A stretch of 64,000 nt of DNA from Candidula unifasciata (Eukaryota; Mollusca; Gastropoda; Stylommatophora; Geomitridae). The stretch spans positions 124,001 to 188,000 of the forward strand of contig CAJHNH020001160.1 in assembly GCA_905116865.2 (NCBI GenBank), written 5' to 3'. The notes beneath the pieces were generated by a model, which was not told where the DNA came from, did no database searches, and saw only the letters and a program-made list of their open reading frames with translations. The stretch's first letter is position 1. The number at the start of each line of letters is the position of its first letter. The position numbers and the translations under genes are program-made. This document shows, in pieces, positions 8,554 to 51,200 of this stretch.

Positions 8554-9171
8554 GTCTGATATTTGCTGGGAGAGACTGTGGCTCCTCTGTTCCATGTGCC
8601 TTGACATTAGTTTTCATAACAGTCACTGGGTACCTCAGCCCTTATGGTTGAAAACCAATGCAGTCTTTGTTATACAGTAAAACCTTATTAACGTGACCTG
8701 GCTTAAGACTAATGCTCTGTGAACTTGAATAAAATGTTCACCCAGGCAGGTTTGTTACAATTTATAGGTCCTTAATTTTAGTAAAAATGTTTTTAACATA
8801 AACCTTGATTTTTCAGTACTTTTGAATTCATATAAACAAGGTTTTACCGTATAACACAGAGGTTCTTAAAATATAAGTACCTTGGAGTCCTCTGTAATTT
8901 TCTCCAGCTTTTATGAAGTAGTTTGAGAGTATTTTACAGTGTAAAACAGCAAAGATGTGAAGAGTTCGTTTTTCCTCTATGAATAGTTTGTGTATCCAGT
9001 CCTCCTAAAACATTGTCAGATTCATAGGTTGTTGCGGAATGTTATATGTTTATATATATATATTCTATAAGTATATGTTCATAATAAGAATATAAATGTA
9101 TTTATAGGGAACATTATGGTATTTCAGAGTGAATTAAATGATCAAAATTGTACTTAAATGTTTACATATAA
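8554..9171. other. No gene recognised, AT-rich
   Basis: AT-rich sequence with a short TATATATA run near 9052. No feature supported. Confidence 0.5.
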
Positions 9172-18612: not shown

Positions 18613-21218
18613 CACAATGGACAAGTGTGGCATCAGTGGATGAGTGTGGATGAGTGTGCCATCAGTGGATGAGTGTGCCATCAGTGGATGAGTGTGGCAT
18701 GAGTGGATGAGTGTGGCATGAGTGGATATGAGTAGATGAGTGTGGCATGAGTGGATGAGTGTGGCATGAGTGGATGAGTGTGGCATAAGTGTGGCATCAG
18801 TGGATGAGTGTGGCATGAGTGGATGAGTGTGGCATGAGTGGATGAGTGTGGCATGAGTGGATGAGTGTGGCATGAGTGGATGAGTGTGGCATGAGTGGAT
18901 GAGTGTGGCATGAGTGGATGAGTGTGGCATGAGTGGATGAGTGTGGGATGAGTGTGGGATGAGTGTGGCATGAGTGGATGAGTGTGGCATGAGTGGACGA
19001 GTGTGGCATGAGTGGATGAGTGTGGCATGAGTGGACAAGTGTGGCATGAGTGGACAAGTGTGGCATGAGTGGACAAGTGTGGCATGAGTGGACAAGTGTG
19101 GCATGAGTGGACAAGTGTGGCATGAGTGGACAAGTGTGGCATGAGTGGACGAGTGTGGCATGAGTGGATGAGTGTGGCATGAGTGGATGAGTGTGGCATG
19201 AGTGGATGAGTGTGGCATGAGTGGATGAGTGTGGCATGAGTGGACCAGTGTGGCATGAGTGGATGAGTGTGGCATGAGTGAACGAGTGTGGCATGAGTGG
19301 ACAAGTGTGGCATGAGTGGATGAGTGGCATGAGTGGACAAGTGTGGCATGAGTGGATGAGTGGCATGAGTGGACAAGTGTGGCATGAGTGTGGATGAGTG
19401 TGCCATCAGTGGATGAGTGTGCCATCAGTGGATGAGTGTGGCATGAGTGGATGAGTGTGGCATGAGTGGATATGAGTAGATGAGTGTGGCATGAGTGGAT
19501 GAGTGTGGCATGAGTGGATGAGTGTGGCATAAGTGTGGCATGAGTGGATGAGTGTGGCATGAGTGGATGAGTGTGGCATGAGTGGATGAGTGTGGCATGA
19601 GTGGATGAGTGTGGCATGAGTGGATGAGTGTGGCATGAGTGGATGAGTGTGGCATGAGTGGATGAGTGTGGCATGAGTGGATGAGTGTGGGATGAGTGTG
19701 GCATGAGTGGATGAGTGTGGCATGAGTGGACGAGTGTGGCATGAGTGGATGAGTGTGGCATGAGTGGACAAGTGTGGCATGAGTGGACAAGTGTGGCATG
19801 AGTGGACAAGTGTGGCATGAGTGGACAAGTGTGGCATGAGTGGACAAGTGTGGCATGAGTGGACAAGTGTGGCATGAGTGGACGAGTGTGGCATGAGTGG
19901 ATGAGTGTGGCATGAGTGGATGAGTGTGGCATGAGTGGATGAGTGTGGCATGAGTGGATGAGTGTGGCATGAGTGGACCAGTGTGGCATGAGTGGAAGAG
20001 TGTGGCATGAGTGAACATGAGTGGACAAGTGTGGCATGAGTGGATGAGTGGACAAGTGTGGCATGAGTGGATGAGTGGCATGAGTGGACAAGTGTGGCAT
20101 GAGTGAACAAGTGTGGCATGAGTGGACGAGTGTGGCATGAGTGGACAAGTGTGGCATGAGTGGACAAGTGTGGCATGAGTGGACAAGTGTGGCATGAGTG
20201 GACAAGTGTGGCATGAGTGGACAAGTGTGGCATGAGTGGACAAGTGTGGCATGAGTGGACAAGTGTGGCATGAGTGGACAAGTGTGGCATGAGTGGACAA
20301 GTGTGGCATGAGTGGACGAGTGTGGCATGAGTGGACGAGTGTGGCATGAGTGGACAAGTGTGGCATGAGTGGACAAGTGTGGCATGAGTGGACAAGTGTG
20401 GCATGAGTGGAGTGTGGCATGAGTGGACGAGTGTGGCATGAGTGGACAAGTGTGGCATGAGTGGACAAGTGTGGCATGAGTGGACGAGTGTGGCATGAGT
20501 GGATGAGTGTGGCATGAGTGGATGAGTGTGGCATGAGTGGACGAGTGTGCCATGAGTGGACAAGTGTGCCATGAGTGGACAAGTGTGCCATGAGTGGATG
20601 AGTGTGCCATGAGTGGACAAGTGTGCCATGAGTGGACAAGTGTGCCATGAGTGGACAAGTGTGGCATGAGTGGACAAGTGTGGCATGAGTGGACAAGTGT
20701 GGCATGAGTGGACAAGTGTGGCATGAGTGGACGAGTGTGGCATGAGTGGATGAGTGTGGCATGAGTGGACGAGTGTGGCATGAGTGGACGAGTGTGGCAT
20801 GAGTGGATGAGTGTGCCATGAGTGTGGCATGAGTGGATGAGTGTGGCATGAGTGGATGAGTGTGGCATGAGTGGATGAGTGTGCCATGAGTGGATGAGTG
20901 TGGCATGAGTGGACAAGTGTGGCATGAGTGGACAAGTGTGGCATGAGTGGACAAGTGTGGCATGAGTGGACAAGTGTGGCATGAGTGGACAAGTGTGGCA
21001 TGAGTGGACAAGTGTGGCATGAGTGGACAAGTGTGGCATGAGTGGACAAGTGTGGCATGAGTGGACAAGTGTGGCATGAGTGGATGAGTGTGGCATGAGT
21101 GGACAAGTGTGGCATGAGTGGATGAGTGTGGCATGAGTGGATGAGTGTGGCATGAGTGGACAAGTGTGGCATGAGTGGATGAGTGTGGCATGAGTGGATG
21201 AGTGTGGCATGAGTGGAT
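18613..21218. repeat. 19-bp minisatellite, 2.6 kb
   Basis: Roughly 137 copies of a 19-bp unit (gtggcatgagtggacaagt) with variant classes ending gatgagt, gacaagt and gacgagt clustered in blocks. Rare variants recur at constant spacing: ggatatgagtag at 18724 and 19468, and tggcataagt at 18781 and 19525, both 744 bp apart, so a block was duplicated. All minus-strand frames remain open for hundreds of codons of His-rich repeats, an effect of the stop-free unit. Confidence 0.97.
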
Positions 21219-22128: not shown

Positions 22129-22271
22129 TCAAAGTTCACAGCTACTGCTAGTATTAACACTGTCGACTCTTTCTGCCGAGGACATGATATCTGTTCTCAC
22201 TGTATACTTGCGCCCAGCAGTAAGCTCTGATCCCTCATGGCAAATATCATGTTGAAATATGAGGACTGATC
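22129..22271 (-). CDS. Oxygenase exon 6 (distal His, Lys, stop)
   Basis: Codes SVLIFQHDICHEGSELTAGR, then KYTVRTDIMSS and a Ser-rich tail ending CEL and TGA (22131-22129). H181 is the distal iron ligand and K191 the 2-oxoglutarate-binding residue. Acceptor CCTTTTGTAG/GATCAG. Confidence 0.94.
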
Positions 22272-25200
22272 CTACAAAAGGAACAGAAAAGGTAGAATGA
22301 GTGCGCAGATGTGACTTTGTGGGTGATCAAATATTAACATTCAAACAACTTTCCCAAGATATTATTTTTTAAACTTTCACAATAAGCACTTTTTTCTGAA
22401 TAAATGTGATCATCATAAAACACATAATTATCACACTGAGTGATGACCATCGCACAAATACACTTAAAATCTTAAAATGCTACCGCTAAACACAATCTTC
22501 ATACACACAATTTCATCATAAACATTACTGGTCTCAATTAAAGCTGATCAGCTAAATATCAATTATCATGGTAATTATGATATGAACTTTAGTGCAATCA
22601 TCACATTAGTACTATGTAGTGAGTATGGCAATGGGTTTATGAAATAGGAACTGCTACAACTGATAAATGAGAATGCCAACTGATTACACTCGTATCGGGG
22701 ATCCCCATGGTGTAGTGGCCAAGCCTTTTGCTTCCTGCTCTGAAAGTCAGTTTTTTAAATGCCTGCATCATTTGTTTCTTGAGTGCCATCTTTACAGTGA
22801 TCAATGGGGATTGTCGCCAGAGCTATGGAATTTGTGCTTTGTGCAATGCTCTCAGTAGGCAGTTAGCCATTCTAGAAAGAGAAACGGCCATATTTGATCA
22901 AACCTGGTGCAACGAAGTCAATACTCTCGACTTCAACTCAACACTCGCATGTGCACAGACCATCTTCACTATCAGTCCATAAGTGCTCAAATCCCCTGCT
23001 CAGTATCTTACAATACCAGTTCTGTATTCGTTAACTATTCTTTCTTGGCTTTGTAGGTAGAGTTCTTGTCTGACTTCACACCTAATGATGCAAAAATTGT
23101 GCATGGTTGAGGTTGCTAACTTATAGTCATCACTTTATTCATTGTTTGTCCTGCCTCTCTGAGCACATTAACTATATCAGCCTGGTCCACCATTCACCAG
23201 CTTTACACAAAGCTGAGCCATCCAGCCTATCAGCCTGTTAATTTTCTCTCACACTTACATCACATAGCATGAAAATAAAAGTGATTTCATGTCAGTGATC
23301 TTCTCAATGATTACAGTTACCATCTCTATGCCTAGATAATCTCAACAGTCCTAGACATAAAATTCATGTTATTGCTCCTGACTGGACTCTTGCCAAGCAG
23401 GGCCAGCCACTAAACAGTTGTAAAAATACTCTTTTCTGTGGCCAAAGCATCCTCTGTAAGAATCCATTAGAAGAACCATAAATTTGTCAAGCTGTACTAT
23501 GTGTAGTTTATAAAACTGTGGAATTATTTAGGAACTGTCCCCCTAAAGAATCACAAAGTCAGCTGCATATAATTAACAGATTTGAGCAAGTCTTGTATTT
23601 TATGAACCTTAACTGGGTAATCTTTATTCTTCTTCTTTGTGTAAACTCCGACAGAAGTTTCTGGTTGTTCATTCACTTCTGTAATTCATGCTTGTTGGGG
23701 ATAGTAGATCTACTCTTGTTTTCTCCACAATACAGCTTCTGAACTCACAATGGTTCTCAGGAATTAACAAAAGGGCCCCAGAACCCACAGTGGCACCCTG
23801 GAACCCAAGCAGGGGTTTTAGTTTATAAAACTGTGAATGTTTTAGGAACTGTACCTATTCACAATCACAAAAAGGAGTTGCATATAATAAACACATTTTA
23901 TCGGTTCTTGCATTTTATGAAACTACATAAACTTTATAAATGAATAGGATTTACATCTGTATCGCTGTGGCACTCATTCTGATTTATTTTGAAGATTTGT
24001 TACTAATCGTTTTTTAATCACAATGTCAAATCAGTATTTTTGTATGGGGCGGAAACATGGAGAACAACTAAGGCAATTACTAATAAATTACAGACAATCA
24101 TTAACTGGTGCCCGTGCATAATAGAGTGAATTAAATGGTATGATAGAATATTTAATGTAGAGCTTTGAGAGAGAACTAAACAGGTTCCAGTGGAACAAGA
24201 GGTGAGGAAAAGACACTGGCGCTGGATTGGACACATACTGAGAAAACAGGAGAACAGCATAACCAGAATGTCTTTGCATTGGAACCTACAGGGGCATAGG
24301 AATAAAGGAAGGCCAAAAAACACATGGAGAAGAGAGCTGGAGAATGAAGTTAGAAAGATGGGGAAGACATGGGGAGAGCTCTATGCAATGGCGAAGGATA
24401 GAATGACCTGGTGTGAGTTGGTTGAGGGCCTATGCTCCATTGGGGGATAGAAAGGCAAAAGAAGAAGAATGGAGGCAGGGTATTCAAAACTATTTGCACA
24501 GTCTTCATTAATTGTAATTTTATTTTTCAGTTTTTTTTAAATCTGTAGGCATTTTAATATTTTTTCTTCCTCTATTGAGATATTGGGAACAGTAGCACGA
24601 TTTGAGTAAAACAGGTGAGGCATGGAGATAATGTATATATTCATGTATTAAATTTAAAAAAATTAAAATTTTGCATTCTTGTATTTAAAATAAACATACC
24701 CCCCCCCTCTCCCCCCCCCCCAAAAAAAACGTACCTGTCTTTGGAATTACTGGCACAAGATCATGTTGGACCCCAATAAAAGTTGTTGCACCTCCTTCAA
24801 AACCCTTGATGATAGATAATATACAGGATGAGTTATATCGCCAATGTGCAGCTAAATAGTACTCATTTTTAACATTTAGTGTAAATGCTGTTTTTTTTTT
24901 TTTTTTTCAAATGGTTGTAGTAAATAAAGTAAAAAGTAAAGTGAAGATCCCTTTTCACGCCCTTAGGCGCATCAGGCATACAGGAAGAGCACCCATATTT
25001 TTACAGACACTGGGTGGGTAATGTGGTCAGCATTACGCCAGCCGTCTTTACTTTCCCAGAACACCCATCCAGGTACCCATTTTAGGCTGGGTCCACCTGC
25101 TACGCCCCATAGCATGAAAAAAATCCATGTAGCCTGCAGTGGGTTTCAATCGCAGTATGTTATAAGTAAAGATCCCTTTTCACGCCTTTGGGCGCATCGG

Positions 25201-28200
25201 GTATATGGGAAGAGCGTGGTTGTAGTAAATATCTGGTGATAATTATCATTCATATTTTGAAGTTCTTTACATTAATTAGACAATACAAGCCCTGCTGCGT
25301 TAGATAATTAAGCTAGAAATTAAAAAATTAGACACAAGAATCACCTTCTTAAGTTAGACAATCAGGCACATATTACCTCATTAAGATACAGCTGAAATGT
25401 AATGTAACTTCGCTCCCCATTATCACGTTTGTATGAGCCATCAAAATGTGGTCTGAAGTAGTCTCCGGCATCATATCTAAGAAATCTCAAGCTGAGATAA
25501 AACAACAGTTAACATTAAACAATATTAAGAAAAGATATAAAACCAAACAAAAAGTATATTATCAAGCTTCACAATATAACTATTACAAACAAAATGTGAA
25601 CGTTGCTGCTATTGAGCCTTCATCAGCACATACAAATGAAACAATACTACACAGACACACAAAATCACTTAGCTGGTATCTCGAAGCAGCCGGGTCAGTT
25701 GTTTCTCAGCAGAATCACAACACGTCTGACTGACTGACTGACTTTCTACCCCACCAGGACATCACACAAGCGATAAACATCCCATGACACATTGTGCCAC
25801 CATGTGGATGAGGATCACTGTGGAGAGGTCCCAGAAACTGCATCAGCCATTAGGCCATATTAATGGCTGGGCTATTTTGCGGCCCCTAGCAAGAGCCAGA
25901 GTAGGGCTTCACATAACGAAAAATGTTATCCTAAAAAGGATGGAAAGTGATGTCTACTCATGACTACATGTGTCGGCTGTAGGAATAAATACCCCCTTTG
26001 GAATACCAGGGTCCATAACTGGGGGGTTGGAGATAAAAATGTGAGGGCAGTTCAATCCCCTGGGAGTTTAAATGAAACCGTGTTGGCAATTCAGTCCAGA
26101 GGGATTTAAAGTCCCCAGAGTATAAATAAAGTGATTCTCAAGAGACTTGCGGACTCTGTCACCTCCATGTCGGTACTGGTTTCAGAGCACCATTGTGCAC
26201 ATCCAAAGCATGTTGTCTGAACCTGTCGGCCAGCCGAAGACCTGTTTCACCAATGTATTTTTCATGCCACATCTCTTGCAGTTGATGGCATAAATTACAT
26301 TGCGGCTGGTACAATAGAATGCTTCACGTATGTGGAAGGTGGCGTTTAAAAAAAATGAGTCAAAACCCACTGGAAAACATTTTTTAAAAAAAAAAATTTG
26401 CACAGGGCATAACAAAATTTTTTTAAAAGTTTGACCTTTTTTTTAAATAATAAAAGATATGAGAAATAATTTAAAAAATAAGGTGGGGCGGGTTAAAAAA
26501 GAAATACATTCCCGGGCCCCAAAAAAATTGTATCTTTTGAAANGGTGGCGTTAGGGAATTCTAGACTAGCCACCTGTACCACATATGGACAGGTTCTGCT
26601 TACAGGTCTGTGGCAAGAAACCGTGTCGAAGTGGGGCTCAGACATGGGGCATAACCTACTCTTGACTAGAATGTCCTTGAGGTTACGATCGTGCCTGAAA
26701 TACTGGCACTAACTCAGCCAGACGAATCAAGGGGTCAGTGGCTATGGCAGGACTGACTCTCTGATCTAGAAAGAACCGAAAAGTCTGGAGGCCATCGGAA
26801 TGTTGAATAGAGGTGTAGAGGGAGGTAACATGTAAGGTGAAGATGTGGCACCTGGAAGAAGAGGTGAACCAGATAGACTGAAAGATAGAGATAGCATGGT
26901 TGGTGTCTTTGATGTAAGACGGGAGATCAACGACCAGAGGCTCCAAAATCTGGTCGAGGAACCCGGATATGAGCTCTGTGGGACAAGCGCAGGCGGACAT
27001 GATAGGTCTACCCGGGTTGTCCGGTATATGTATCTTGGGAAGCATGTGAAGGCCAGGCTTTCCCAGACAACTGTCCTGGACAAATAGAGAGCTGGCCCGT
27101 CCAGGCCTGGATGAAGGTTGTGATGGTACTTTTCACTATTTTGTTGTTTTTTACCGTAACATCCTGTGTCTGGGTTCATAGAAAGATGTGTCACTAAGCT
27201 GACTGTCCCCTTCTTGCACATATAAATCTTTTCTCAAGACTACTATCGCACCTCCCTTTCGGCAGCTTTGATAAAAATATCATCACAAAGTTTAAAACAT
27301 GTGAGTGCCTGAAGTTCTTGAGGTGAGAGGTTTACATTACAACATTACAACATTTACAACATTAAACAATGTGCTTCATATAGCCTGTTATTTTATTGTA
27401 TTTAAAACTGCAGAGGTAGCTTAACCCTATTGTTCCAAGAACTCTAAAAAAAATGAGTCAAAACCCCACTGGAAAGACATTATTTAAAAAAAAAAAATTC
27501 AGCACAGGTCACTAACAAATTTGTTTAAATGTGTTGACCTTTTTTCAAATATATAAAAGATATATCGAGAAGTAATTAATAAAATAAGGTGGAGCGGTTA
27601 AATGAAATACATTCCCGGCCCTAAAAACATATGTATCTGTGACCCTGTAACCTCTATCCCTGAGGCTTATGGGAAAAGAACATGTCAGCTTGGCTTTAAG
27701 AAAGCTGTTTGGCTCAAAAGCAATCTTCCCTAAATGATATTTTAAATTAATGTATTTACAACCTGACATTCTGAATGTATGTGCAGACACGAATACAGCA
27801 GATAGCATTAACTATGTATCCCGTAAACAGGCCACTGTAGACAAGTCAAAGAAGTTACATGTGTGGGAAATTTGTCAGACTAGAAACTGCCAGTTTTGCG
27901 GCTTCTCAGAGCAAAAAGTTAAAAGGCTTTGCTTAATCATTTATTTTCTACCCAGGTGCACAGAGATAGCTAACGAGTTTTAATGTGAAATACACTTCTT
28001 CTGTTTATAATACAACACTGTCCATTGGTCAGGAAATTACAGCTGAACAATGAGGTCTCTTCATTTCTGGTGATCTAATGTGCTGGACTGTTTTTTTCAT
28101 TTTTTTATTTGAGGCCCATTGAGTCTGCCAGATTGTAAATTGCTATCTTTTTTGGCCTACCTTATCTTTTCTTTCCTTGTACATAGCCATTGTGTCCTTT

Positions 28201-31200
28201 ATACCTGCTAATGATAGTGTTTCACATTTAGGTTTCTATTAAATGTTCATCAAGAAATATTCAGAAGTCACATCTGTTGCCTTCCTGAACCATCTCTGGA
28301 CCCTGAAGGCATCACACCCTTGTTCAAGCCCCAATGTCACTTCACAGCTGAGGTGCTGATGGTACTTTCTGTTCTACTAGCAACATTGTCACAAGAAGCT
28401 CTATACAAAACTGCTGCTAAAAGTTCAATCCAACACTGCCCCAGAAGTTCTGTCCAGTAGGTGACCTCAAGTGTTTGTAGTAGGTGACCCCGAGTGTTTG
28501 TAGTAGGTGACCCTGAGTGTTTGTAGGTCTGCCTGGATATTATCTTTCATTGTCTTCTTGGTCTGCCTCATTGTCTACAGCCTCATACTTGTGTACACAG
28601 TTTTGCTTTTCTGTCACCAGCCAATCTCTCTATATGACCAAGTCATTTCAGTCTATTATCCCTCATAATGCCAGCGATCAGTGGGGATTTATACATATTA
28701 TACTTTACTTACAAGGACTTAGCTCCAGATGTGCCAAAGCTAATCAAGTAATGGGTCAACTATCTCCCCTGTTGACACACAAGCAGATACCTCGGAGTAC
28801 TAAACTGAATCTTGTCAGAACTATTTTTTGGCCAACACTATGCTATCAATGCCAAACGTGGACACTTACATCCTCCAATGAACGTAAAATTGTGACAACA
28901 GAGATGAAATGCCTTAGAAGAGCTGCAGGAGTTTCAAGGAAAGACAGAATACGAAATCATGAAATCAGACAAATGCTAGGAATAAAGCCAGTCTTACAGG
29001 TCATCAAAGAACAACAAATGAAGTGGTCTGGACACCTAACAAGAATGCCCTGGTACCATCCGCCACAACGAGCCACACTAAAACGTTACAACGGGTATAG
29101 AGCGAGTGGAAGACCTTGGAAAACATGGAGTGATGGTATTAAGAACAGCCTTACAGAAATGAACATCAGTCTTAATAGTGCTCTTGACAGAGCTCATCAA
29201 CGAACATTACATCTTCCCCCGACACTTCGATGAGGTACAAGGTGGAAGAGAAGAAGAAGAACTTACAAGGACTTTACCTTGTATCCATTTCAGTCTGTTC
29301 TTGACCTGATGTGTAAAGATAAACATATGAAGAAGAAGAAGAAGAAGAAACAAATACAACTGAATAAACCAGAGAATAAGAAACAGCAGGAGAAGAAGAA
29401 AAGAAAGAACAAGAAAAAAAAAACAGACAAAGAAAAATAAAAGAAAGAAGGAGAAGTTTTTACCGCTCATTCAGACCAAGAACTCTGTGCTCCTTAAACA
29501 CAGATGGAATGAACTCTTTAATCCGTTCCCACAGCTCTTGCACGTAAGGTACAGAATCTACAATGCAGCGCTTACTGCTACGTACATCAGTCATCATCTT
29601 TTCCCTGAAATATAACAAACTAAGGCATAATTCCCTTAAATACAACAAACTAAGGCATAATTCCCTTAAATACAACAAACTAAGGCATAATTCCCTTAAA
29701 TACAACAAACTAAGGCATAATTCCCTTAAATACAACAAACTAAGGCATAATTCCCTTAAATACAAACAAACTAAGGCATAATTCCGCTTAAATACAACAA
29801 ACTAAGGCATAATTCCCCTTAAATACAACAACTAAGGCATAATTCCCTTAAATACAACAAGCTAAGGCATAATTCCCTTAAATACAACAAGCTAAAAGCA
29901 TAATTCCCTGAAATACAACAATACTAAGCATAATTCCCTGAAATACAACAAACTAAGGCTAATTTCCTGAAATAACAACGCTATTCAGCTAAAGCATAAT
30001 TCCCTGAAAATACAACAAACAAAAAGCCTAATTCACCTGAAATACAACAAGCTAAAAGCATAATTCCCTGAAATACAACAACAAAAGCATAATTCCCTGA
30101 AATACAACAAACAAAAGCATAATTCCCTGAATACAACAAACTAAAAGCATAACTCCCTGAAATACACAAGCTAAAGCATAATTCCCTGAAATACAACAAG
30201 CTAAGCATAATTCCCTGAAATACAACAAGCTAAAGCATAATTCCCTGAAATACAACAAGCTAAAGCATAATTCCCTGAAATACAACAAGCTAAAGCATAA
30301 TTCCCTGAAATACAACAAGCTAAAGCATAATTCCCTGAAATACAACAAGCTAAAGCATAATTCCCTTAAATACAACAAACTAAGGCATAATTCCCTTAAA
30401 TACAACAAACTAAGGCATAATTCCCTTAAATACAACAAACTAAGGCATAATTCCCTTAAATACAACAAACTAAGGCATAATTCCCTTAAATACAACAAAC
30501 TAAGGCATAATTCCCTTAAATACAACAAACTAAGGCATAATTCCCTTAAATACAACAAGCTAAAGCATAATTCCCTGAAATACAACAAACTAAAGCATAA
30601 TTCCCTGAAATACAACAAGCTAAAGCATAATTCCCTGAAATACAACAAACTAAGGCATAATTCCCTTAAATACAACAAGCTAAAGCATAATTCCCTGAAA
30701 TACAACAAACAAAAGCATAACTCCCTGAAGTACAACAAGCTAAAGCATAATTCTCTGAAATACAACAAGCTAAAGCATAATTCCCTGAAATACAACAAGC
30801 TAAAGCATAATTCCCTGAAATACAACAAGCTAAAGCATAATTCCCTGAAATACAACAAGCTAAAGCATAATTCCCTGAAATACAACAAGCTAAAGCATAA
30901 TTCCCTGAAATACAACAAGCTAAAGCATAAGTCCAGCTGCTTGTTGTTTTTTAAACCATTTTTAAATGGCAAAAATACAAGTGGTTTAAAGGGGCAGTTT
31001 GCACATTATGTTGTGGTTTACTGATAAGCTGCAACAGCTGTTTTCTTTCAGCTCCTTATCCTGACCTCAGCCAACATCATGTTAGTCACTTTTATGACAT
31101 GTTTGTTATGCCTCCCTGCTCCCATGGAGCCCCAGCATCCACACAGGGAGGTTCACTGTATCCACACAGGGAGGTTCACTGCATCCACACAGGGAGGTTC

Positions 31201-34200
31201 ACTGCATCCACACAGGGAGGTTCACTGCATCCACACAGGGAGGTTCACTGCATCCACACAGGGAGGTTCACTGCATTCACACAGGGAGGTTTACAGCATC
31301 CCGTCAGGTTCTGGTTATTAGAGGGTTTCTGTAAACTTTATTACTGTCAAAGAGGAACGATTGTTGTAGGTAGCCAGTTGTACTAGAAACTAATAGACAC
31401 ACACAAAGATCTAATGTACAGTCAGCAAATTCACAAACTGTGATCTTCAACACGTATCAATCCATGTGTTAACAAAACCATGACACAAAGCTATCTACAA
31501 TGACCTCACATTGTCTTCAATTGCCTGTCTATATAATTTATATTTCTTTATTATATGCATAACATTGATAACAGTTGATAACAATTGATAATATTGATAA
31601 CAGGTATTAGTACTCTGAAGAATGAGTACTTAAAAGGGCTGAATGTCAGACGAGCCTGCGTGCCCAATTTTTAACCCTTTGAAAATAAAGTTTGTTCGTT
31701 CTCTTTCCACAGTTCTTTCCAGTGGTCACAATAGGTTCCAGTTTCCTTCGTCTCATAATATGACCCAAAACACTTGAAATACAGATACTTCAGTTTGTTA
31801 TGATCTGCATTCAATCAGGTCTGTGGCTTAGGTACTGTGAATGTGCTTCATAATTTCAAAGTACCTGGTTCAATTTTAGCTACAGGTGATTTAGCAGCAA
31901 ACTGAATTATGTTGATTATGACAGAGGTTAACACCACAATGTCCTGTTTGCTTATTGTAATTGGTTTGTAAAGTTGACATAAACCTTTTGTCTTTCCTAC
32001 CTCTTTCCTTCTTTTCTTCTCTTCCCTAAAATGTCCTATCTTTTAAAACTTGTACAGGATAGTTACTAATTTTGTTCCCCCTGATTCTGAAATTATTTCA
32101 ACGCATTTCAAACTACTTGCAAATTATTCTAAAAGAAACAGTTATAAATCATCCTTACCTACCGCCCCCCACGTTGACAAGTGCAGGGATGTAGCCGATC
32201 CTCTCTGTTTCTTGTATAAACCTGTTGCACTCCTGACACAAGACAGGGTCAAGGCCATTTTTGAAACATTAAATACATGTGAGATTTTTACTAAGAATCT
32301 TCAATGACATTATGAAGCCTTTTTTGCACTAAATTACCTTTATCTGCTTTATCATTTGTGAAACACATCATAAATCTATCTCATTCTTAATCACATCATT
32401 AGTTTATCTCATTCTCAATCACATCATTAGTTTATTTCATTCTCAATCATATCATAAGTTTATCTCATTCTCAATCATATCATAAGTATATCTCATTAAA
32501 AACAAGAATAGTAACTAGCAAAAGACAGGAAACTACATCTAACGCCTCTCTGTGACACTTTACAGCATAATCAATACGACAGAAGAAGACGAAGGGATGT
32601 TTAATTCCTGACATGTACAAGAGTTTCTCCAGTCTTACCATTGTCTAAGAAAGGTCAAACATTCAATCCCTGTACACATACCAAAAACATAATTTTTAAA
32701 AAAAAGGTGAGGGGGTGTCGCATGCTGACATACAAGAGACAGCACGGATAGTTGCTGTTATCACCAAGACATCATAAAAAGGTGATGATGATATTTGCAT
32801 GGTTTTGGTTGCCGGTGAACAGAGTTTGAGATCCTGATCCAACAGTTGTTCCCTGGAATCATAGGCCATTTGCTCTGGTAAGTCCTTCTCACAATATGCA
32901 GCACTGGCCAGTCATACAATGAGCATCATAATTGGTTTTGGTAGTGGGGGGGGGGGGGGGGCGATGTACAGTGAGGCTTCGACTGCAATTCAGCCTAAGG
33001 CTAGTATCAAGTTGAAGAAGATAATGTGTCACCTGTTCTTGCTCATATATATCAGACACCTACACTGATCATGAACTATTATTTATCAGTACATCATGTT
33101 TAGACTACACGAACTAGTTACAACTATTTAACAACTGTTTTGCAATTCCCTGTTGATGAGAGTCAGGAGCACAGAACTCCAACAAACCTATGAAGTCCGT
33201 ATCTACACACTTTTGAGCTTAACTGATTTTAAATGACAGTTTTGCATTCAAATTTTACAACATGTTCTTACTTAACTGTTGTATAATACTTAGCTTTATA
33301 CTACATTGTTCAGCATGCAAATGGGACATGTTTTACTGCCATCATGCATGCTTCAGGGTGAGCTTATTCTGAAGGATCATCTGAATATTAATAAGCTCAT
33401 CTGTGGGCAATACACAGCTCTCATCTTAAAAATAAGCTTATTTGTACGAAGACTGTTAGTTCCTTACCTCTCTGAATTAAAGTCCACCCAAAACTTTCAA
33501 CCGGAGTTTACAGCCATGAAAATGAGGAGGAGGAAGAAGAAAAAGAAGAAGAAGAAAAAAAAGAAGAAGAAGAAGAATAAGAAGAAGAAGAAAGAGGGAA
33601 GAAGAGGAGGAGGAAGAAGAGAAGGAGAGGATGAAAAAGCAAAAGGAGGAGGAGGAGGAGAAGAAGAAGAAGAAGAAGAAGAAGAAGAAGAAAATAAATG
33701 CTTGCCTTGGTGCGACTAAACTTAAAGCTTTTGTGGGCCTAATGAGCTATGGGCTGGACATCCCTCACCACTACTGAAAAGAAAGAATAAATACTGTCTG
33801 TGGATAATTTCTCTAAAACTGGTACCCAAGTCTGGCTGAAGAACACAACTGCTTCATGCATCTTCAGAAGTAATGGGTACCCATGACTGCCTGTATAGAG
33901 GCTGCAAGGAAGCAGCCTCTCAACTGTGCAAAGACACAACAGGATAATCTGTTTGCCTTAAACTATGATTGCAAGTTATCACAGACAGAAAACTGGACTT
34001 AACGGAAATCTGCTGATGGAGAAGTCTGGTGATGTCTCTGGCAATACTCTACTCCCCAGGGTAGAAGAAGATCAACTAATTGAAGTGAATGTGAATACCT
34101 AACAAGTCAGTCTCATTTACGTGTGTGAATGTTAAAATGCAACAACACAACAGTTACCACAAGTCTACCTCTTCTGTGAGGACATTATGCAATACAAAGG

Positions 34201-34276
34201 CAAGTTTTCCTTGATAACCAGATGGCAGATTGATATCCTCCTTCGTAACATGAGGTCTCATGCCTTCAGTAAACAT
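22129..34276 (-). CDS. 2-oxoglutarate/Fe(II) oxygenase, prolyl 4-hydroxylase type (6 coding exons)
   Basis: Joining 34276-34169, 32232-32159, 29604-29464, 25491-25377, 24804-24735 and 22271-22129 on the minus strand gives an uninterrupted 216-codon frame. All five introns are GT-AG, with phases 0, 2, 2, 0, 1. The product has the double-stranded beta-helix features of the P4H family: HNVLTEEECNRFI near the start, GLNERLRFLRYDAGDYF before the first iron ligands H123-F-D125, and distal ligand H181 in CHEG. K191 lies ten residues after H181, the spacing used by prolyl 4-hydroxylases to bind 2-oxoglutarate. Such enzymes hydroxylate a protein or small-molecule substrate with Fe(II), O2 and 2-oxoglutarate; the substrate cannot be told from sequence. 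No signal peptide is visible, so a cytosolic or nuclear enzyme is likely. The start is the ATG in a strong context (gccaccATG), but the frame is open upstream to a possible acceptor at 34308, so a 5' extension is not excluded. Confidence 0.94.
22400..24042. other. Intron 5 of the oxygenase, left part
   Basis: No exon recognised. At 22695-22720 an A-box-like TGGTGTAGTGGCCAAG hints at an old SINE head. The 84-residue plus-strand frame at 22728-22982 has no motif that I recognise. Confidence 0.4.
24043..24452 (+). pseudogene. LINE C-terminal relic, copy 2 (in oxygenase intron 5)
   Basis: Antisense to the host gene. After a decayed YGAETWRTT-like start, an open stretch reads RHWRWIGHILRKQENSITRM, then NKGRPKNTWRRELENEV and ends in LVEGLCSIGG. 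This is the C-terminal tail typical of APE-type LINEs. It aligns with 2790-3180. In-frame stops at about 24125 and 24170 and absence of the catalytic core show it is dead. Confidence 0.78.
24700..24720. repeat. C-rich tract
   Basis: Runs of 7-10 C adjacent to an A run, only 15 bases beyond the exon 5 donor. Confidence 0.85.
24735..24804 (-). CDS. Oxygenase exon 5
   Basis: A 70-bp exon encoding GFEGGATTFIGVQHDLVPVI and PKT plus one base of Gly170. Acceptor ATCATCAAG (an AAG type), donor ACAG/GTACGT, phase 1. The paralogous exon at 41950-41881 has exactly the same length and boundaries, which supports this model. Confidence 0.92.
24935..25215 (-). repeat. SINE family A copies in oxygenase intron 4
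   Basis: Minus-strand copy with the family end (gatcccttttcacgcc as seen on plus), the block gtaatgtggtcagcattacgcc, and a B-box-like gatcgaaacc-type motif near 25140. A second tail (aagtaaagatcccttttcac) at 25164-25213 shows a second, truncated copy inserted next to it. Confidence 0.75.
25377..25491 (-). CDS. Oxygenase exon 4 (H-x-D)
   Basis: A 115-bp exon beginning with the last base of Arg108 and encoding LRFLRYDAGDYFRPHFDGSY, then a stretch ending FQLYLNE. It holds iron ligands H123 and D125. Acceptor TTTTATCTCAG, donor AATGAG/GTAATA, phase 0 out. Confidence 0.95.
25745..25955 (-). repeat. Dispersed repeat B, copy 1
   Basis: Shares ordered blocks with 39168-39374, 46232-46310 and 60650-60842 (gagaggtccc, aagcgataaacac, agccagagt). 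Its 3' end (low coordinates) carries a GACT tandem tail at about 25725-25744. Confidence 0.8.
25985..27340 (-). pseudogene. Penelope-like element relic (RT and GIY-YIG)
   Basis: Minus-strand fragments follow the domain order of Penelope-like elements. NLSPQELQAL and IKAADKGGAIVVLRKDLY start the RT region near 27330-27220. MLPKIHIPDNPGRPIMSA and LHVTSLYTSIQHSDG are RT signatures in the frame 27045-26683. Then comes a GIY-YIG endonuclease region with FYCTSRNVIYAINCKRCG (26340-26270) and a C-terminal LGTLNPSGLN near 26070. Frameshifts and stops break all domains. The copy sits in intron 3 of the oxygenase in the same orientation as the gene, and is interrupted by the anomalous segment at 26347-26543. 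Confidence 0.85.
26347..26543. other. Anomalous segment with ambiguous base, inside the Penelope relic
   Basis: The sequence ggtggcgtt occurs on both sides (26338-26346 and 26544-26552). The interior is a poor copy of 27445-27640, differing mainly by homopolymer lengths, and ends at the only N of the window (26543). It lacks the MITE ends. A gap-fill or consensus error is the simplest explanation. Confidence 0.7.
27421..27922. mobile_element. TTAA-flanked MITE family M, intact copy
   Basis: Starts TTAACCCTATTGTTCC at 27421 and ends gagcaaaaagTTAA at 27922, with inverted ends inside TTAA. The interior aligns with the MITE interrupted by the RTE-like LINE at 48167-51942 (shared gtcagttttctggttctc-type end and ataaacaggtcac-type motif). 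The TTAA target points to a piggyBac-mobilised non-autonomous family. It lies in oxygenase intron 3. Confidence 0.7.
28452..28527. repeat. Short 23-bp tandem repeat
   Basis: Three near-identical copies of a gtaggtgacc...gtgtttgta unit. Confidence 0.8.
28723..29233 (+). pseudogene. LINE C-terminal relic (in oxygenase intron 3)
   Basis: Antisense to the host gene, with a long open frame. Signatures in order: LSPLLTHKQIPRSTKLNLVR, FWPTLCYQCQTWTL, EMKCLRRAAG, QQMKWSGHLTRMPWYHPP and YRASGRPWKTWSDGI. These are the post-RT C-terminal domain of an APE-type LINE. The frame is open to a stop at 29233, followed by a GAAGAAG tail. The start upstream of about 28723 is not family-like, so the copy is 5'-truncated. 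Confidence 0.82.
29464..29604 (-). CDS. Oxygenase exon 3
   Basis: A 141-bp exon encoding residues 61-108 (EKMMTDVRSSKRCIVD ... RVLGLNE). Acceptor TATATTTCAG/GGAAAAG, donor GAGCG/GTAAAA, phase 2 in and out. The acceptor is directly abutted by the 30-bp minisatellite at 29605-30931, whose unit is a copy of this splice site. Confidence 0.94.
29605..30931 (-). repeat. 30-bp minisatellite made of exon 3 splice acceptors
   Basis: About 44 units abut exon 3 without a gap. Read in gene orientation a unit is TTGTTGTATTTCAG/GGAATTATG, against the true site TTGTTATATTTCAG/GGAAAAGATG, so the first unit is the exon's own acceptor region. Two unit classes exist: TTTCAG (most of 30050-30360 and 30550-30931) and TTTAAG (29625-29760, 30361-30545 and a single unit near 30655). 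Units at 29605-29765 are in exact 30-bp register and in frame with the exon, with no stop. Units between 29766 and 30180 carry many one-base indels. Confidence 0.95.
31136..31305. repeat. 23-bp minisatellite (intron 2)
   Basis: Seven copies of a 23-bp unit (cactgcatccacacagggaggtt). They are nearly perfect except for the last. Confidence 0.93.
31306..32158. other. Intron 2, right part
   Basis: AT-rich, with a short repeat of tgataacaattgataa near 31565-31605. No exon recognised. Confidence 0.4.
32159..32232 (-). CDS. Oxygenase exon 2
   Basis: A 74-bp exon encoding ECNRFIQETERIGY and ALVNVGGG plus two bases of an Arg codon. Acceptor CTTGTGTCAG/GAG, donor GGTAG/GTAAGG, phase 0 in and phase 2 out. 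It completes the family motif begun in exon 1 (LTEE-EC). Confidence 0.93.
32366..32498. repeat. 28-bp tandem repeat (intron 1)
   Basis: About four and a half copies of a 28-bp unit (ctcattctcaatcacatcat). Confidence 0.88.
32499..33519. other. Intron 1, middle part
   Basis: No exon recognised. A poly-G run of about 17 lies at 32946-32962. Confidence 0.4.
33520..33697. repeat. Purine-only GAA/GGA tract
   Basis: About 175 bases of almost uninterrupted purine on the plus strand (GAAGAA and GGAGGA). In the sense of the oxygenase transcript this is a long TTC/TCC pyrimidine tract inside intron 1. Such mirror-like tracts can form triplex DNA. Confidence 0.9.
33811..34085 (+). mobile_element. Internally deleted RTE-like derivative
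   Basis: The left 195 bases match the 5' end of the LINE at 48314-51529 (gtctggctgaag, tgcttcatgcatctt, gcctgtatagaggctgcaag, aaaactggacttaacgg). The right 75 bases match that LINE's extreme 3' end (ctgctgatggagaagtctgg, ggtagaagaag). The roughly 2.9 kb between is missing, leaving a SINE-sized non-autonomous element. It lies antisense in oxygenase intron 1, 84 bases from exon 1. Confidence 0.82.
34169..34276 (-). CDS. Oxygenase exon 1 (coding part)
   Basis: Codes residues 1-36, ending ...VLHNVLTEE. The donor is GAAGAG/GTAGAC (phase 0). Upstream, TTGTTGACACCTACAG at 34323-34308 is a plausible acceptor, so this may be the second exon of the transcript with a 5' UTR start. Confidence 0.88.
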
Positions 34277-34389
34277 GGTGGCACAATTCTTTCTTGACCT
34301 GTCAATACTGTAGGTGTCAACAAATTTACATTTAGATGGAAACAAATATTCCATTATCTTATTACATAAGTAAATGAAAACTGATTTGA

Positions 34390-37080
34390 AAAGGTTGACA
34401 TACTTAATGATATTGGTGATGATGATGGTAGTTGTGGTGGTGGTGGTGGTGATGTTGGTGATGATGATGGCAATTGGGGTTGTGGTGGTGGTGGTGTTAA
34501 TGATGTGTAGTTGAGGTGGTGATGGTGTTGACAATGTGTGGTTGTGGTGATGGTGGTGTTGATAATGTTTGGTTGTGGTGATAGTGGTGTTGATGATGTG
34601 TTGATGTGGTGATGGTGGTGTTGATGATGTGTGATGGTGGTGTTGATAATGTGTGGTTGTGGTGATGGTGGTGTTGATGATGTGTGGTTGTGGTGATGGT
34701 GGTGTTGATGATGTGTGGTTGTGATGGTGCTAATGATGTGTGGTTGTGATGGTGTTGATGATGTATGGTTGTGGTGGTGTTGATGATGTGTGGTTGTGAT
34801 GATGGGGGTGTTGATGATGTGTGGTAGTGGTGGTGGTGTTGATGATGTGTGATTGTGGTGGTGGTGTTGATGTGTGGTTGTGGTGGTGTTGATGATGTGT
34901 GGTTGTGATGATGGGGGTGTTGATGATGTGTGGTTGAGGTAGTGATGGTGTTGATGATGCGTAGTTGAGGTGGTTGTGGTGTTGAAAATGTGTGGTTATG
35001 GTAATGGTAGTGTTGACAATGTGTGGTTGTGGTGTTGCTGATGATGTGTGGTTGAGGTGGTGGTGATGTTGATAATGTGTGGTTCTTGTAATGGTGGTGT
35101 TGATAATGTGTGGTTGTAGTGGTGTGGTTGACGATGTGTGGTTGTAGTGGTGGTGTTGATGATGTGTGGTTGTGGTTGTTTTGATGATGTGTGGTTGTGG
35201 TGATGGTGTTGATGATGTGTGGTTGTGGTGGTTTTGATGATGTGTGGCTAAGGTGGTGGTGATGTTAATGATGTGTGATTGTGGTGGTGATGGTGTTGAC
35301 GATGTGTGATTGTGGTGGTAATGGCGATGATGGTGTTGACGATGTGTGATTGTGGTGGTGATGGTGTTGACGATAGCGATGATGGTGTTGACAATGTGTG
35401 ATTGTGGTGATGATGGTGTTGGCGATGTGTGGTTGTGGTGATGGTGTTGACGATGTGTGGTTGTGGTGATAGTGTTGACAATGTGTGGTTGTGGTGATGG
35501 TGTTGATGATGTGTGATTGTGGTGGTGATGGTGTTGACGATATGTGGTTGTTGTGGTAATGTTAATGATATGTTATTGTGGTGGTGATGGTGTTGATGAT
35601 GTGTGATTGTGGTGGTGATGGTGTTGGCGATGTGTGGTTGTGGTGATGGTGTTGACGATGTGTGGTTATGGTGATGGTGTTGACGATGTGTGGTTGTGGT
35701 GATGGTGTTGATGATGTGTGATTGTGGTGGTGATGGTGTTGATGATGTGTGGCTGTGGTGATGGTGTTGACGATGTGTGGTTGTGGTTGTGGTGATGGTG
35801 TTGACGCTGTGTGATTGTGGTGGTGATGGTTTTGACAATGTGTGGTTGTGGTGATGGTGGTGTTTATGATGTGTGGTCGAAGTGGTGGTGATGTTAATGA
35901 TGTGTGATTGTGGTGGTATTGGTGTTGGCGATGTGTGGTTGTGGTGGTGATGGTGTTGGCGATGTGTGGTTGTGGTTGTGGTGGTATTGGTGTTGGCGAT
36001 GTGTGGTTGTGGTTGTGGTGGTATTGGTGTTGGCGATGTGTGGTTGTGGTGTCATGATGTGTGGTTGAGGTGGTGGTGATGTTAATGATGTGTGATTGTG
36101 GTGGTGATAGTGTTGGCGATGTGTGGTTGTGGTTGTGGTGGTGATGGTGATGGTGGTGGTGATGGTGTTGGCGGTGTGTGGTTGTCGTGGTGATGGTGTT
36201 GGTGATGTGTGGTTGTGGTTGTGGTGGTATTGGTGTTGGCGATGTGTGGTTGTGGTTGTGGTGGTATTGGTGTTGGCGATGTGTGGTTGTGGTGTCATGA
36301 TGTGTGGTTGAGGTGGTGGTGATGTTAATGATGTGTGATTGTGGTGGTGATAGTGTTGGCGATGTGTGGTTGTGGTTGTGGTGGTGATGGTGATGGTGGT
36401 GGTGATGGTGTTGGCGGTGTGTGGTTGTCGTGGTGATGGTGTTGGTGATGTGTGTTTGTGGTTGTGGTGGTGATGGCGATGTGTGGTTGTGGTTGTGGTG
36501 GTGATGGTGTTGGCGATGTGTGGTTGTGGTGGTGATGGTGTTGGCGATGTGTGGTTGTGGTGGTGATGGTGTTGTTGATGTGTGGTTGTGGTGGTGATGG
36601 TGTTGTTGATGTGTGGTTGTGGTGGTGATGGTGTTGGCGATGTGTGGTTGTGGTGGTGATGGTGTTGGCGATGTGTGGTTGTGGTTGTGGTGGTGATGGC
36701 GATGTGTGGTTGTGGTTGTGGTGGTGATGGCGTTGGGGATGTGTGGTTGTGGTTGTGATGGTGTTGGCGATGTGTGGTTGTGGTGGTGATGGCGATGTGT
36801 GGTTGTGGTGGTGATGGTGTTGGCGATGTGTGGTTTGTGGTTGTGGTGGTGATGGTATTGGCGATGTGTGGTTGTGGTGGTGATGGCGATGTGTGGTTGT
36901 GGTGGTGATGGCGATGTGTGGTTGTGGTGGTGATGGCGATGTGTGGTTGTGGTTGTGGTGGTGATGGTGTTGGCAATGTGTGGTTGTGGTGGTGATGGTG
37001 TTGGCGATGTGTTGTTGTGGTTGTAGTAGTGATGGCGATGTGTGGTTGTGGTGGTGATGGCGATGATGGTGACGGTGGTT
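34390..37080. repeat. GTGGTG/GATGTGTGG minisatellite, 2.7 kb
   Basis: An irregular tandem array of triplet-like modules (gatgtgtggttgtggtgg, tgatggtgttg) strongly biased to G and T on the plus strand. A 243-bp block is duplicated in tandem: gtcatgatgtgtggttgagg recurs at 36051 and 36294 with near-identical surroundings. Its edge is about 80 bases upstream of oxygenase exon 1. His/Asn/Thr/Pro-repeat frames on the minus strand are by-products. Confidence 0.95.
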
Positions 37081-40626: not shown

Positions 40627-41290
40627 GTGCTCATAACGTCTGTTCCGATTGTGTATATGCTGAGCTCATAACGTCTGTTCCGATTGTGTATATGCTGAGC
40701 TCATAACGTCTGCTCCGATTGTGTATATGCTGAGCTCATAACGTCTGTTCCGATTGTGTATATGCTGAGCTCATAACGTCTGTTCCGATTGTGTATATGC
40801 TGAGCTCATAACGTCTGTTCCGATTGTGCTGAGCTCATAACGTCTGTTCCGATTGTGTATATGCTGAGCTTATAACGTCTGTTCCGATTGTGTATACGCT
40901 GAGCTTATAACGTCTGTTCGGACTGTGTATATGCTGAGCTTATAACGTCTGTTCCGATTGTGTAAATGCTGAGCTTATAACGTCTGTTCGGACTGTGTAT
41001 ATGCTAAGGTCACAACGTCTGTTCCGATTGTGTATATGCTGAGCTTATAACGTCTGTTCCGATTGTGTATAATATGCTGAGCTCATAACGTCTGTTCCGA
41101 TTGTGTATAATATGCTGAGCTCATAACGTCTGTTCCGATTGTGTATAATATGCTGAGCTCATAACGTCTGTTCCGATTGTGTATAATATGCTGAGCTCAT
41201 AACGTCTGTTCCGATTGTGTATAATATGCTGAGCTCATAATGTCTGTTCCGACTGTGTATATGCTGAGGTCATAACGTCTGTTCGGGCCG
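40627..41290. repeat. 35-bp minisatellite seeded by a paralogue exon
   Basis: About 18 copies of a 35-bp unit (gctcataacgtctgttccga plus ttgtgtatatgctga). A 38-bp variant (tataatatgctga) is confined to 41050-41232. In minus orientation the unit contains CGGAACAGACGTTATGA, which matches the exon at 41359-41235 where CCGAACAGACGTTATGA codes Arg-Thr-Asp-Val-Met, so the array probably grew out of that coding end. Confidence 0.92.
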
Positions 41291-41359
41291 TGTACTTGCG
41301 CTCCTCAATCAGTGGCGAGCCTTCGTGTAGTATGGCATGGTGGAATATCAGAGCCGACC
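41235..41359 (-). pseudogene. Paralogue of oxygenase exon 6 (decayed)
   Basis: Conceptually SALIFHHAILHEGSPLIEER then KYTARTDVM, clearly homologous to residues 171-199 of the intact enzyme, with the distal His and the Lys at +10 conserved. The acceptor AG expected just upstream (41361-41360) reads GG, so the splice site is lost. After RTDVM the frame runs into the 35-bp array and stops 12 residues later. Confidence 0.85.
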
Positions 41360-41880
41360 CCGTTGAACGAAACACAATGTTGCAATAAATTTGGTGCATA
41401 AAAGCGTTGTCTGTAGAGATTCTACAAGCACATCCGCCAAATGCAGCATTTGTATACATACACGCACACATGCACGCGCGTGCACACCCACACACAAAAG
41501 ACACACACACTCACGACTGTAAACAAAAGTAGCACCATAAAATGTGGCGGTTGTTTCATTACAGAACTTTCCCTACTTTTGATTTTGCCGACTCTTTTAA
41601 GACAGACACAATAATTCAGTCTACCAGTTAACCAGAGGTTTAACTAGCCATTTAAAAGGGTACACATACATAAAATACATTCACGCGACACATATTCACA
41701 CTGCAGACGACACATGGATGTGTCATGTCCTGACACAGTTATAAAAGCTCTGGACAAAGCCACTGGGCTACAGCAGCTCACCTACTGAGACATAGGCCTA
41801 ACCATTTATATTAAACTGGCTGGACAACACAAAAATCACTTTCCTGCGGAGAGATTCTTGTGAACATTGCAGAAACATAC

Positions 41881-41950
41881 CTGTCCTTGGAATCACCGAG
41901 ACTGTGTCGTTGTTGCTTCAAATAAAGTTTGTGAAGCCACCTTGAAAACC
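41881..41950 (-). pseudogene. Paralogue of oxygenase exon 5 (in-frame stop)
   Basis: Exactly 70 bp like exon 5, with acceptor TTTGCCAG/GGT and donor GACAG/GTATGT. It reads GFQGGFTNFI, then TGA at 41920-41918 where exon 5 has Gly, then a stretch ending VSVIPRT. The intron to the next exon is about 520 bp. Exons 1-4 of this copy were not found between here and the window end. Confidence 0.85.
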
Positions 41951-48297: not shown

Positions 48298-51200
48298 TTA
48301 AAATTATTTTTAACTCCGCTAAGACCGGTCCCAAGCCCGGCTGTAAAAGGAGGAGGGTCTGGCTGAACCTGAGTGCTTCATGCATCTCCGGAAGTAGTGG
48401 GTAACCGTGAATCAGCCAGACGGCCTGCATGGAGGCCGCAAGGAGGCAGCCCCTCCACCATGCAAAGGCACAACAGGCCAATCACCTGTTTGCCTTAAAC
48501 CACGATTACAAGTAACTACAGAGAGAAAACCGGACGGATCTTAACGGCGACGAACTGGCATGGCTTACGGACTACGATTTATGGAACATGGAATATAAGA
48601 GGCATTAACGGAAAGGAAAACGAGTTAGTAGGGGAGATGAGGAAAGCAAAATTAGGAGTCTTGGCTCTGACTGAAACCAAGAAAAAGGGGCAAGGAATCA
48701 CAGATCACGATGGAAGTATGCTGCTCTACAGTGGTGTCCCTATGACGGAGAGAGCCGTTGGCTGTATTGTGGCCAGGAATCAAGTTAGTAACATCAAGGG
48801 ATGGAAATTCATCTCAGAGCGAATAATGGTGTTAGATCTGAAAGAAGAAGATAAAATTGTCAATTTTGTCATTGTGTACGGGCCAAATGAAGATGAGCGA
48901 GTAGATGTTAAAGAAGAATTCTTTGAACTGCTCCAAAAGACCATAGATGACTGTCACGATGAAATTATCCTCCTAGGAGATCTAAATGCCAGAGTAGGAA
49001 ATGATCACTCTAGATGGGGTGGAGTGATCGGGAGATATGGTGAAGATGTTTTGAATGAAAATGGCAAGCGACTTCTCAGATTCTGCAGGGAACAGAACCT
49101 TGTCATTACAAACACAAAATCCCCCACAAGCGTATACATGCATACACAAGATGTGAACCTTCAAAGAATGAAAAATCCATCATTGACTACGCCATAGTTA
49201 GGAAAAGTTCATTCAAGTTTGTGAGAGATGCCAGAGTCATGAGAGGACCAGAGATTGGAAGTGACCACTATCTGGTCACAATAAAGAGAACAACTGAAAG
49301 AACTGCTCCAACAAGGCAACACCGACAACTATGCAAGAAACCAAGCAACCAAGAAGGGATGAGGATTAAAGCATACAAGCTAAGAGAGCCAGATATTAAG
49401 GCTAGATACCAGGAGCTTATAGTGAAAGCAATAGGAACTGAAGAAGAATCATCAGAGGACACTGAAACTCTCTGGTGCAGATTCAAGAATATCCTCACAG
49501 CAGCTGCAGTAGAAGCATGTGGTGAAGTCCCAAGTGGAAGGCGGGGACACAGGACACCTTGGTGGACAGAAGAAGTCAAATTGAAAATAGGAGAAAAGAA
49601 AAGGGCATGGAAGAAATACCTGGCAGCCAGGAACACAGCTGAAGAAATAGAAAAATATAAACAATATGTGGCACTCAGAACAGAGACCAAAAATATTGTG
49701 CTTAAAGCAAAACAGAAATCATGGGAAGAGTTTGGAGAAAAGTTGGAAAAGAATGCAAGAGAAAACCAAAAACTGTTCTACAAGACCCTTAAGAACATGA
49801 GGAAGGAGAAAGAGTGCCCACTTAAATTCATAAAAGACAAGGAAGGGGCTCTGCTTACTTCTACAAATGATATCATGGGCAGATGGAAAGAATACTTCTC
49901 AGAGCTCCTCGGCGCTGAGGGAAGTCATGACCCAGAAATAATGGACCTCACTGCTGAGAAGGAATCCAATCATGGGGAAGATAACATCAGGATGGAAGAA
50001 TTGAAGGCAGCTATTGAGAAGATTAAGCTGGGAAAAGCAGCAGGTCATGATGGTATAACACCAGAGATGGTCAAATATATGGGAGTCGAAGGTGAGCGCC
50101 TTCTACTGAAGGTTCTCCAGGCAGCCTGGTGTAGCAAAACTATACCAAAAGATTGGGAGATTGCCATCATTATACCTATATTTAAAAAAGGTGATAACAG
50201 ACAATGTGAAAACCACAGAGGCATATCCCTCCTCAGCATTCCCGGTAAAAGTTACTCTAGAATTCTTGAGCAGAGACTTAGAAGTCTGGTAGAGCCACAG
50301 CTGGACGAGGCCCAGTGCGGCTTCAGAGCAAACCGAAGTACTCAAGACCTTATCTTCACACTGAGACAGATGAGTGAAAAAGCCCTGGAATATAAGAGTG
50401 AGATTCACTTATGTTTTTTGGATCTGGAAAAGGCATTTGACAAGGTACCCTGGAACAAGCTCTGGGACTGCTTGGCAGGGAAAAACATCCCAGCACCCCT
50501 GATCAGTGCAATACAAAGTTTCTACAAAAAGTGCAGAAATTATGTAAGAACAGCAGACCAAAAGTCAGAAGAATTTAAGACCACCAGCGGTGTTAGACAA
50601 AGGTGATATTCTCTCACCTTACCTCTTCATTCTTATGATGGATGATGTCATCAAGACCTGTAAGGAGAAGACAAAGAAGTACTCTGTAGGGTACTGGAAG
50701 ATGAGACCAATCTGTATATCAGAGCTGGCTTTTGCAGACGATGTGGCCCTGATAGCTAAATCAGAGGCACACCTTCAGTCCAACTTACTTGTCTGGAAGG
50801 AAGAGCTTGAAAAGAAAGGGATGACCATCAGTGTCTCCAAAACTAAAACCATGGTGATCTCAAGAGAGGAGAAGAAACACCAGATCATGATGGGTCAGTA
50901 TGCGTTGGAGCAGGTTAACCAGTTCAAATACCTTGGAGTTGTATTAGACCAAAATGGAGGCATTAAGACTGAGCTGGCTACACGAAAAGCAGCTGCTGGG
51001 AGAATCTTCCAGGCCATAAACCGAGGGTTTCTTAGCAAAAGAGAAATTGGCAAGAGGACGAAAATGGCTGTTTACCGCTCTACCTATGTACCAGTCCTGA
51101 CCTATGGGTGTGAGTCATGGGCAATGACAACAGCTCACAGAAGCCAGCTGCAGGCCTCGGAAATGAGATACCTGAGAAAGGTGGTCCAAGTGACAAGAAG

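Follow-up and report, generated by a model that had tools for sequence, protein, structure and literature searches.

How does a gene keep an exon boundary when the intron before it ends in dozens of copies of its own 3' splice site? The question is raised by an intron of a Fe2OG dioxygenase gene of the land snail Candidula unifasciata, located in a stretch of 64,000 nucleotides (hereafter the window). With a probability of about 0.7, we favor the interpretation that a minisatellite was seeded in this intron, in a minisatellite-rich genome, by a 30-bp duplication of the exon-3 acceptor, and that the last unit of the array would be the one mainly used.

The host gene and the origin of the array

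The host gene lies on the minus strand and has six exons, and PF13640 appears in the precomputed domains of its protein. The best protein match was a C. unifasciata protein (100% over 168 residues), and the six-exon model is identical to this public protein in 242/242 residues. As this model was built with the exon-3 start at 29604, the start given in the preliminary description reproduces the public protein letter for letter. RNA-seq is named among the inputs of the public gene model (PMC8496239), but the prediction was partly guided by homology, so the public protein does not prove acceptor use. The coding part of the gene is arranged as follows:

34169..34354, minus strand: exon 1 in the public model, with its start at 34354; the start of the Bradybaena protein corresponds to the ATG at 34276
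32159..32232, minus strand: exon 2, 74 nt, donor GTAAGG, followed by intron 2 in phase 2 (gene model)
29601..30934, minus strand: 30-bp minisatellite of 44 units, the last of which carries the real exon-3 acceptor (TRF and unit table)
29464..29604, minus strand: exon 3, 141 nt, donor GTAAAA (gene model and homolog alignment)
25377..25491, minus strand: exon 4, acceptor TCTCAG (gene model)
24735..24804, minus strand: exon 5, acceptor ATCAAG/GG, with its AAG at 24805-24807 (gene model)
22129..22271, minus strand: exon 6, to the stop codon (gene model)

Among 12 homologs from other animals, picked for alignment from 120 listed, none carries an insert at the exon 2-exon 3 junction; the alignment is ungapped nearby in ten of them and has a one-residue gap in two. 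Searched on its own against Pfam and solved structures, exon 3 returned nothing useful. At least six matches to the gene were found in the genome, corresponding to exons 2 to 6 at the locus and a degenerate fragment at 41262-41405 of the window, and a second intact copy was not seen among eight candidates scored (a lower bound). A paralog was considered as an outgroup for the acceptor and discarded, as the genome search gave only the degenerate fragment. An exon-5-like piece containing a stop is located at 41879-41950.

The reported 30-bp array at 29605..30931 was recovered by TRF at 29601-30934, with period 30, 44.1 copies and 92% matches. A 23-base degenerate form of the unit, allowing up to two mismatches, had 36 matches in the window, all of them within the array and on the minus strand, with 0.00 expected from 100 shuffles. 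Across the assembly of 1,344,651,174 bases (7176 contigs), no copy with up to two mismatches was found elsewhere, 35/35 matches being inside the array. Its units are tandem, head to tail and within the range of about 10-100 bp usual for minisatellites (30 bp x 44.1), and the variant units occur in blocks, with two types, A and B, arranged in runs in the one assembly available. The array at 29601-30934 is real and unusual.

Spacing between units is exactly 30 in 32/43 cases and otherwise takes values of 29-37, and the units of other lengths are clustered in the middle of the array. This clustering, together with the way the assembly was made (25.6x PacBio reads, processed with wtdbg2, Racon and Pilon; PMC8496239), would fit an artefact in which the copy number or the indels are wrong. 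Nevertheless, reads with an N50 of 9.9 kb span a 1.3-kb array (PMC8496239) and the unit variants form coherent blocks, which makes such an artefact very improbable.

In each unit, 26 nt correspond to the end of the intron and 4 nt to the start of exon 3. On the minus strand, the common unit reads TTATGC...TTTCAGGGAA; the unique flank ...GCAGCTGGAC is followed by unit 1, and unit 44 continues into the coding sequence AAGATGATG, so that units 1 to 44 are bracketed as ...TGGAC/TTATGC...TTTCAGGGAA/AAGATG.... This composition of intron and exon indicates that the array expanded through tandem duplication spanning the acceptor and derives from it by descent, beyond mere likeness. The unit table thereby agrees with the preliminary description both in treating the unit as copied from the exon-3 acceptor and in having the array begin at the exon boundary. 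The seed would have been a 30-bp tandem duplication straddling that acceptor. Two main unit types are found, A (CTTTAGC...CAG) and B (CCTTAGT...AAG), along with some intermediates; the real, last unit is B-like, has one private change and retains its CAG.

Decoy acceptors and the probable choice of the last unit

Acceptor-like sites were defined as TT before CAG or AAG. The scanned stretch contained 45, and a match within exon 3 at 29493 was dropped, leaving 44: the real CAG at 29605 and 43 decoys, of which 26 are CAG and 17 are AAG. The earlier count of about 44 acceptor-like sites ahead of the real one holds as to the existence of such a series, but the number is 43, the 44th being the real site itself. 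Likewise, a perfect CAG is present in many decoys, as had been stated, but the 17 AAG sites, which include all nine nearest to the exon, had gone unmentioned. The sites are distributed as follows:

29605..29630, minus strand: real intron-2 acceptor, the intron part of unit 44, ending in TTTCAG (reproduces the public protein)
29631..29903, minus strand: nine exon-proximal decoy units, all AAG and predicted to be base-paired (unit table and folding)
29635, 29665, 29695, 29725, 29755, 29787, 29818, 29847 and 29877, minus strand: G of the AG in the proximal decoys
29904..30930, minus strand: 34 distal decoy units, 26 CAG and 8 AAG (unit table)

The nine nearest decoys (29635-29877) reach 272 nt from the real site, and the closest CAG decoy is 303 nt away, so that all decoys within 300 nt are AAG. 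By the usual preference AAG acceptors are poorer than CAG. However, an AAG acceptor precedes exon 5 in this gene model, and the AAG decoys are therefore not dead. The AAG units form three runs, one of seven, one of nine and one single, and since these were spread by duplication we do not ascribe the nine proximal AAG units to selection. Another AAG run lies far from the exon, at 30365-30545. In most units there is also a TAG located some 16 nt upstream of the CAG or AAG; units 8, 28, 29 and 31 are among the few that lack it. These internal TAGs were left out of the decoy count.

Sequence strength alone does not select the real site. In a rough position score, with assumed base frequencies rather than ones derived from this snail, the real site reached 3.19, below 23 of the 26 CAG decoys (19 at 3.66 and four at 5.45) and above the other three. 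Choice among units should depend on branch-point and U2AF binding and on exon definition, the latter favoring nearness to the donor. Exon definition from the exon-3 donor would thus favor the nearest site, and the decoys within 300 nt would be at a disadvantage as AAG sites that are also predicted to be paired.

The preliminary description had argued that, under the rule by which the first suitable AG after the branch point is used, the true site should be disfavored. This argument is weak, as the rule covers AGs downstream of the branch point used, where scanning begins (Smith et al. 1989, 1993, cited in PMC10946897 and PMC3250501), and nearly all decoys are probably upstream of it. Predicted human branch points are located 29.3 +/- 11.9 nt upstream of the acceptor (PMC8531310), which would put the branch point of the real site in the last unit or the one before it. 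If this human distance is carried over to the snail, nearly all decoys should lie upstream of that branch point and outside the scan.

The best branch-point candidate in the last unit matches yTrAy at 4/5 positions and is located at -32, within the AAG of the last decoy; from there, the TAG of the last unit itself, at -16, would be reached before the real AG. A best match of 4/5 is also found in intron 4, and introns 1 and 3 have 5/5 matches within 40 nt. Weak candidates of this kind recur across the units, including near the real site. A CTAAC near 31085, noted by eye, would place the branch point upstream of the array; this possibility was rejected, as many AGs lie between that site and the array. 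Recursive (ratchet) splicing was also discarded: AG/GT occurs in 1/44 units and is absent from the real site. That single case, unit 30 (CAG/GTGAAT at 30037), fuses an acceptor to a donor-like site.

To evaluate the consequences of decoy use, exon 2 was joined to each decoy and then to exons 3 and 4. The unit length of 30 nt is divisible by three, and no in-frame stop occurs in the five exon-adjacent units; the five nearest decoys, all AAG, retain the frame, with 10 to 50 residues added to the protein. In the assembled sequence, the remaining 38, including 26/26 CAG decoys, run into a premature stop, although the frames and stop positions of distal decoys depend on array indels that are possible assembly errors. 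Any use of stop-yielding decoys would probably lead to mRNA decay.

These data also bear on the idea, suggested in part by the preliminary description, of a noisy locus where several decoys are used appreciably, CAG decoys giving stops and decay and near AAG decoys giving longer proteins, so that copy number and unit type would tune the amount of productive mRNA. The scores of the 23 CAG decoys and the recurrence of weak branch-point candidates are consistent with such noise, and minisatellite units of human IFI6 can act as used splice sites (PMC4526556). On the other hand, the public gene model, with RNA-seq among its inputs (PMC8496239), takes 29604, and 303 nt separate the nearest CAG decoy from the real site. 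We consider appreciable decoy use unlikely. If the last unit is the main acceptor, as we favor, any decoy use would end in a premature stop or, for the five nearest sites, in 10-50 extra residues.

Predicted folding of the array

Folding predictions suggested a further possibility, namely that the array masks itself. In type-B units, which carry C at position 7 (C7) and A at position 24 (A24), UUAAGG pairs with CCUUAG of the next unit in a hairpin predicted at -5.0 kcal/mol, compared to -0.2 kcal/mol for type A. Such units would hide their own AG, and as type B occupies the exon-proximal end, the decoys that matter would be off and the real site open. The probability of an open AG was computed under six window and temperature settings. 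Predicted medians for AAG decoys were 0.007-0.066, with the nine proximal ones at 0.110 or less, and the real site reached 0.60-0.91. The unit table points in the same direction, a CC unit coming next after 16/17 AAG decoys vs 1/26 CAG decoys.

However, the predicted medians for CAG decoys were 0.48-0.74, and the real site ranked 2 to 12 of 44 in openness by AG and 1 to 3 of 44 by NAGG. The distal CAG decoys thus overlap with the real site, and predicted openness does not select it. Moreover, the AG was closed equally well by 131/3000 random triple changes, or 72/3000 with the A fixed, and A24 with one random change equaled C7 plus A24 in 11/400. By itself, the position-12 change, which falls outside the stem, was sufficient to close the AG in tandem modeling (0.013 vs 0.947), and the AG was less open in most random variants (median 0.12) than in type A. 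Just two mutations are involved, spread by unit duplication, and the second AAG run is far from the exon. Global folding as a masking device was rejected, the array being no more structured than its shuffles (z +3.41, +0.35 and +1.45). In any case, the AAG of the last decoy cannot both serve as the branch point at -32 and pair in its hairpin within one molecule. Self-masking by type-B units is in our estimate quite improbable. Equally doubtful is the related model of a partly self-disarmed minisatellite. In this model, two changes in the exon-proximal units convert CAG to AAG and bury that AG in a hairpin formed with the following unit, so that the 43 decoys would coexist with faithful splicing and gene output would depend on both copy number and unit type.

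Genomic background and comparison with known systems

We examined how common such arrays are in this genome, for which 22,464 genes and an assembly of 1.29 Gb in 8586 scaffolds have been published (PMC8496239). In a sample of 20 stretches, one from each fiftieth contig in numerical order and always at the same offset, 36 pieces of minisatellite array (period of at least 10, at least four copies) accounted for 40,204 of the 171,602 non-N bases (23.4%); in the window, 17 arrays covered 19.5%. With 23% of the genome sample in minisatellites, the presence of such an array is not astonishing. The motif TTTCAGG in three successive units gave 5082 matches in the genome vs 4123 for the reversed control, figures that are not array counts, since matches overlap. 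Acceptor-like arrays are ordinary in this genome. We take the number of acceptors to be about 150,000, that is, 22,464 genes times the introns per gene, the latter being our assumption. As a rough estimate for random seeds, 36/171.6 kb x 35 bp gives about 0.7% of positions that were once seeds, so that if seeds are random, hundreds of acceptors would, on this rough figure, have seeded arrays before selection.

Other repeats are present in the window. A 35-bp array of 18.5 copies (40629-41284), with units encoding YT-GTDVMSSA-like pieces that resemble the coding end of exon 6, adjoins a degenerate exon-6-like fragment of the same gene family (41262-41357) and apparently is a minisatellite grown from coding sequence. 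A 2.7-kb CCACCA-rich array (34414-37079; 31-bp unit, 86.8 copies) begins about 60 bp upstream of the annotated dioxygenase start, and an open frame at 34154-34729 runs from it into exon 1. A 19-bp array of 138 copies with several open frames occupies 18646-21218. By eye, open frames at 48499-51528 resemble a LINE reverse transcriptase with endonuclease, and 9138-9932 is RNase H domain-like.

In a limited open-access literature search, judged mostly from titles and the starts of abstracts, no comparable minisatellite or VNTR of acceptor sites was found. The earlier statement that no case had been described thus stands for acceptors but not for donors, as human IFI6 (6-16, G1P3) has a published splice-donor minisatellite (Turri, Cuin and Porter 1995, cited in PMC4526556). 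Both arrays sit at an exon boundary and have units carrying a splice-site consensus. Unlike the donor units of IFI6, which are reported as used, the snail units are 43 acceptor decoys known from sequence alone. The snail array may also resemble NAGNAG and other tandem acceptors, where neighboring in-frame AGs compete and where the base before the AG and the distance to the branch point matter; NAGNAG sites are 3 nt apart, close enough for one branch point (PMC3250501). The snail sites, by comparison, are about 30 nt apart, 44 in number and accompanied by recurring weak branch-point candidates. In Epstein-Barr virus IR1, each tandem unit brings a splice acceptor, and whole W exons are repeated and used in series. 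An acceptor per unit is common to both arrays, whereas repetition of whole exons is found only in IR1. The MSY2 minisatellite of DDX3Y, as described in its source, supplies a start site and not an acceptor array.

With its 30-bp unit, its 44 copies and its variant units in blocks, the snail array is like an ordinary intronic VNTR or minisatellite, from which it differs in that it was seeded by a working splice acceptor and ends in that acceptor. It shows that, in a minisatellite-rich genome, functional splice signals can give rise to arrays that persist, and it offers a natural experiment on how the spliceosome selects one of 44 near-identical acceptors that vary in strength, position and distance.
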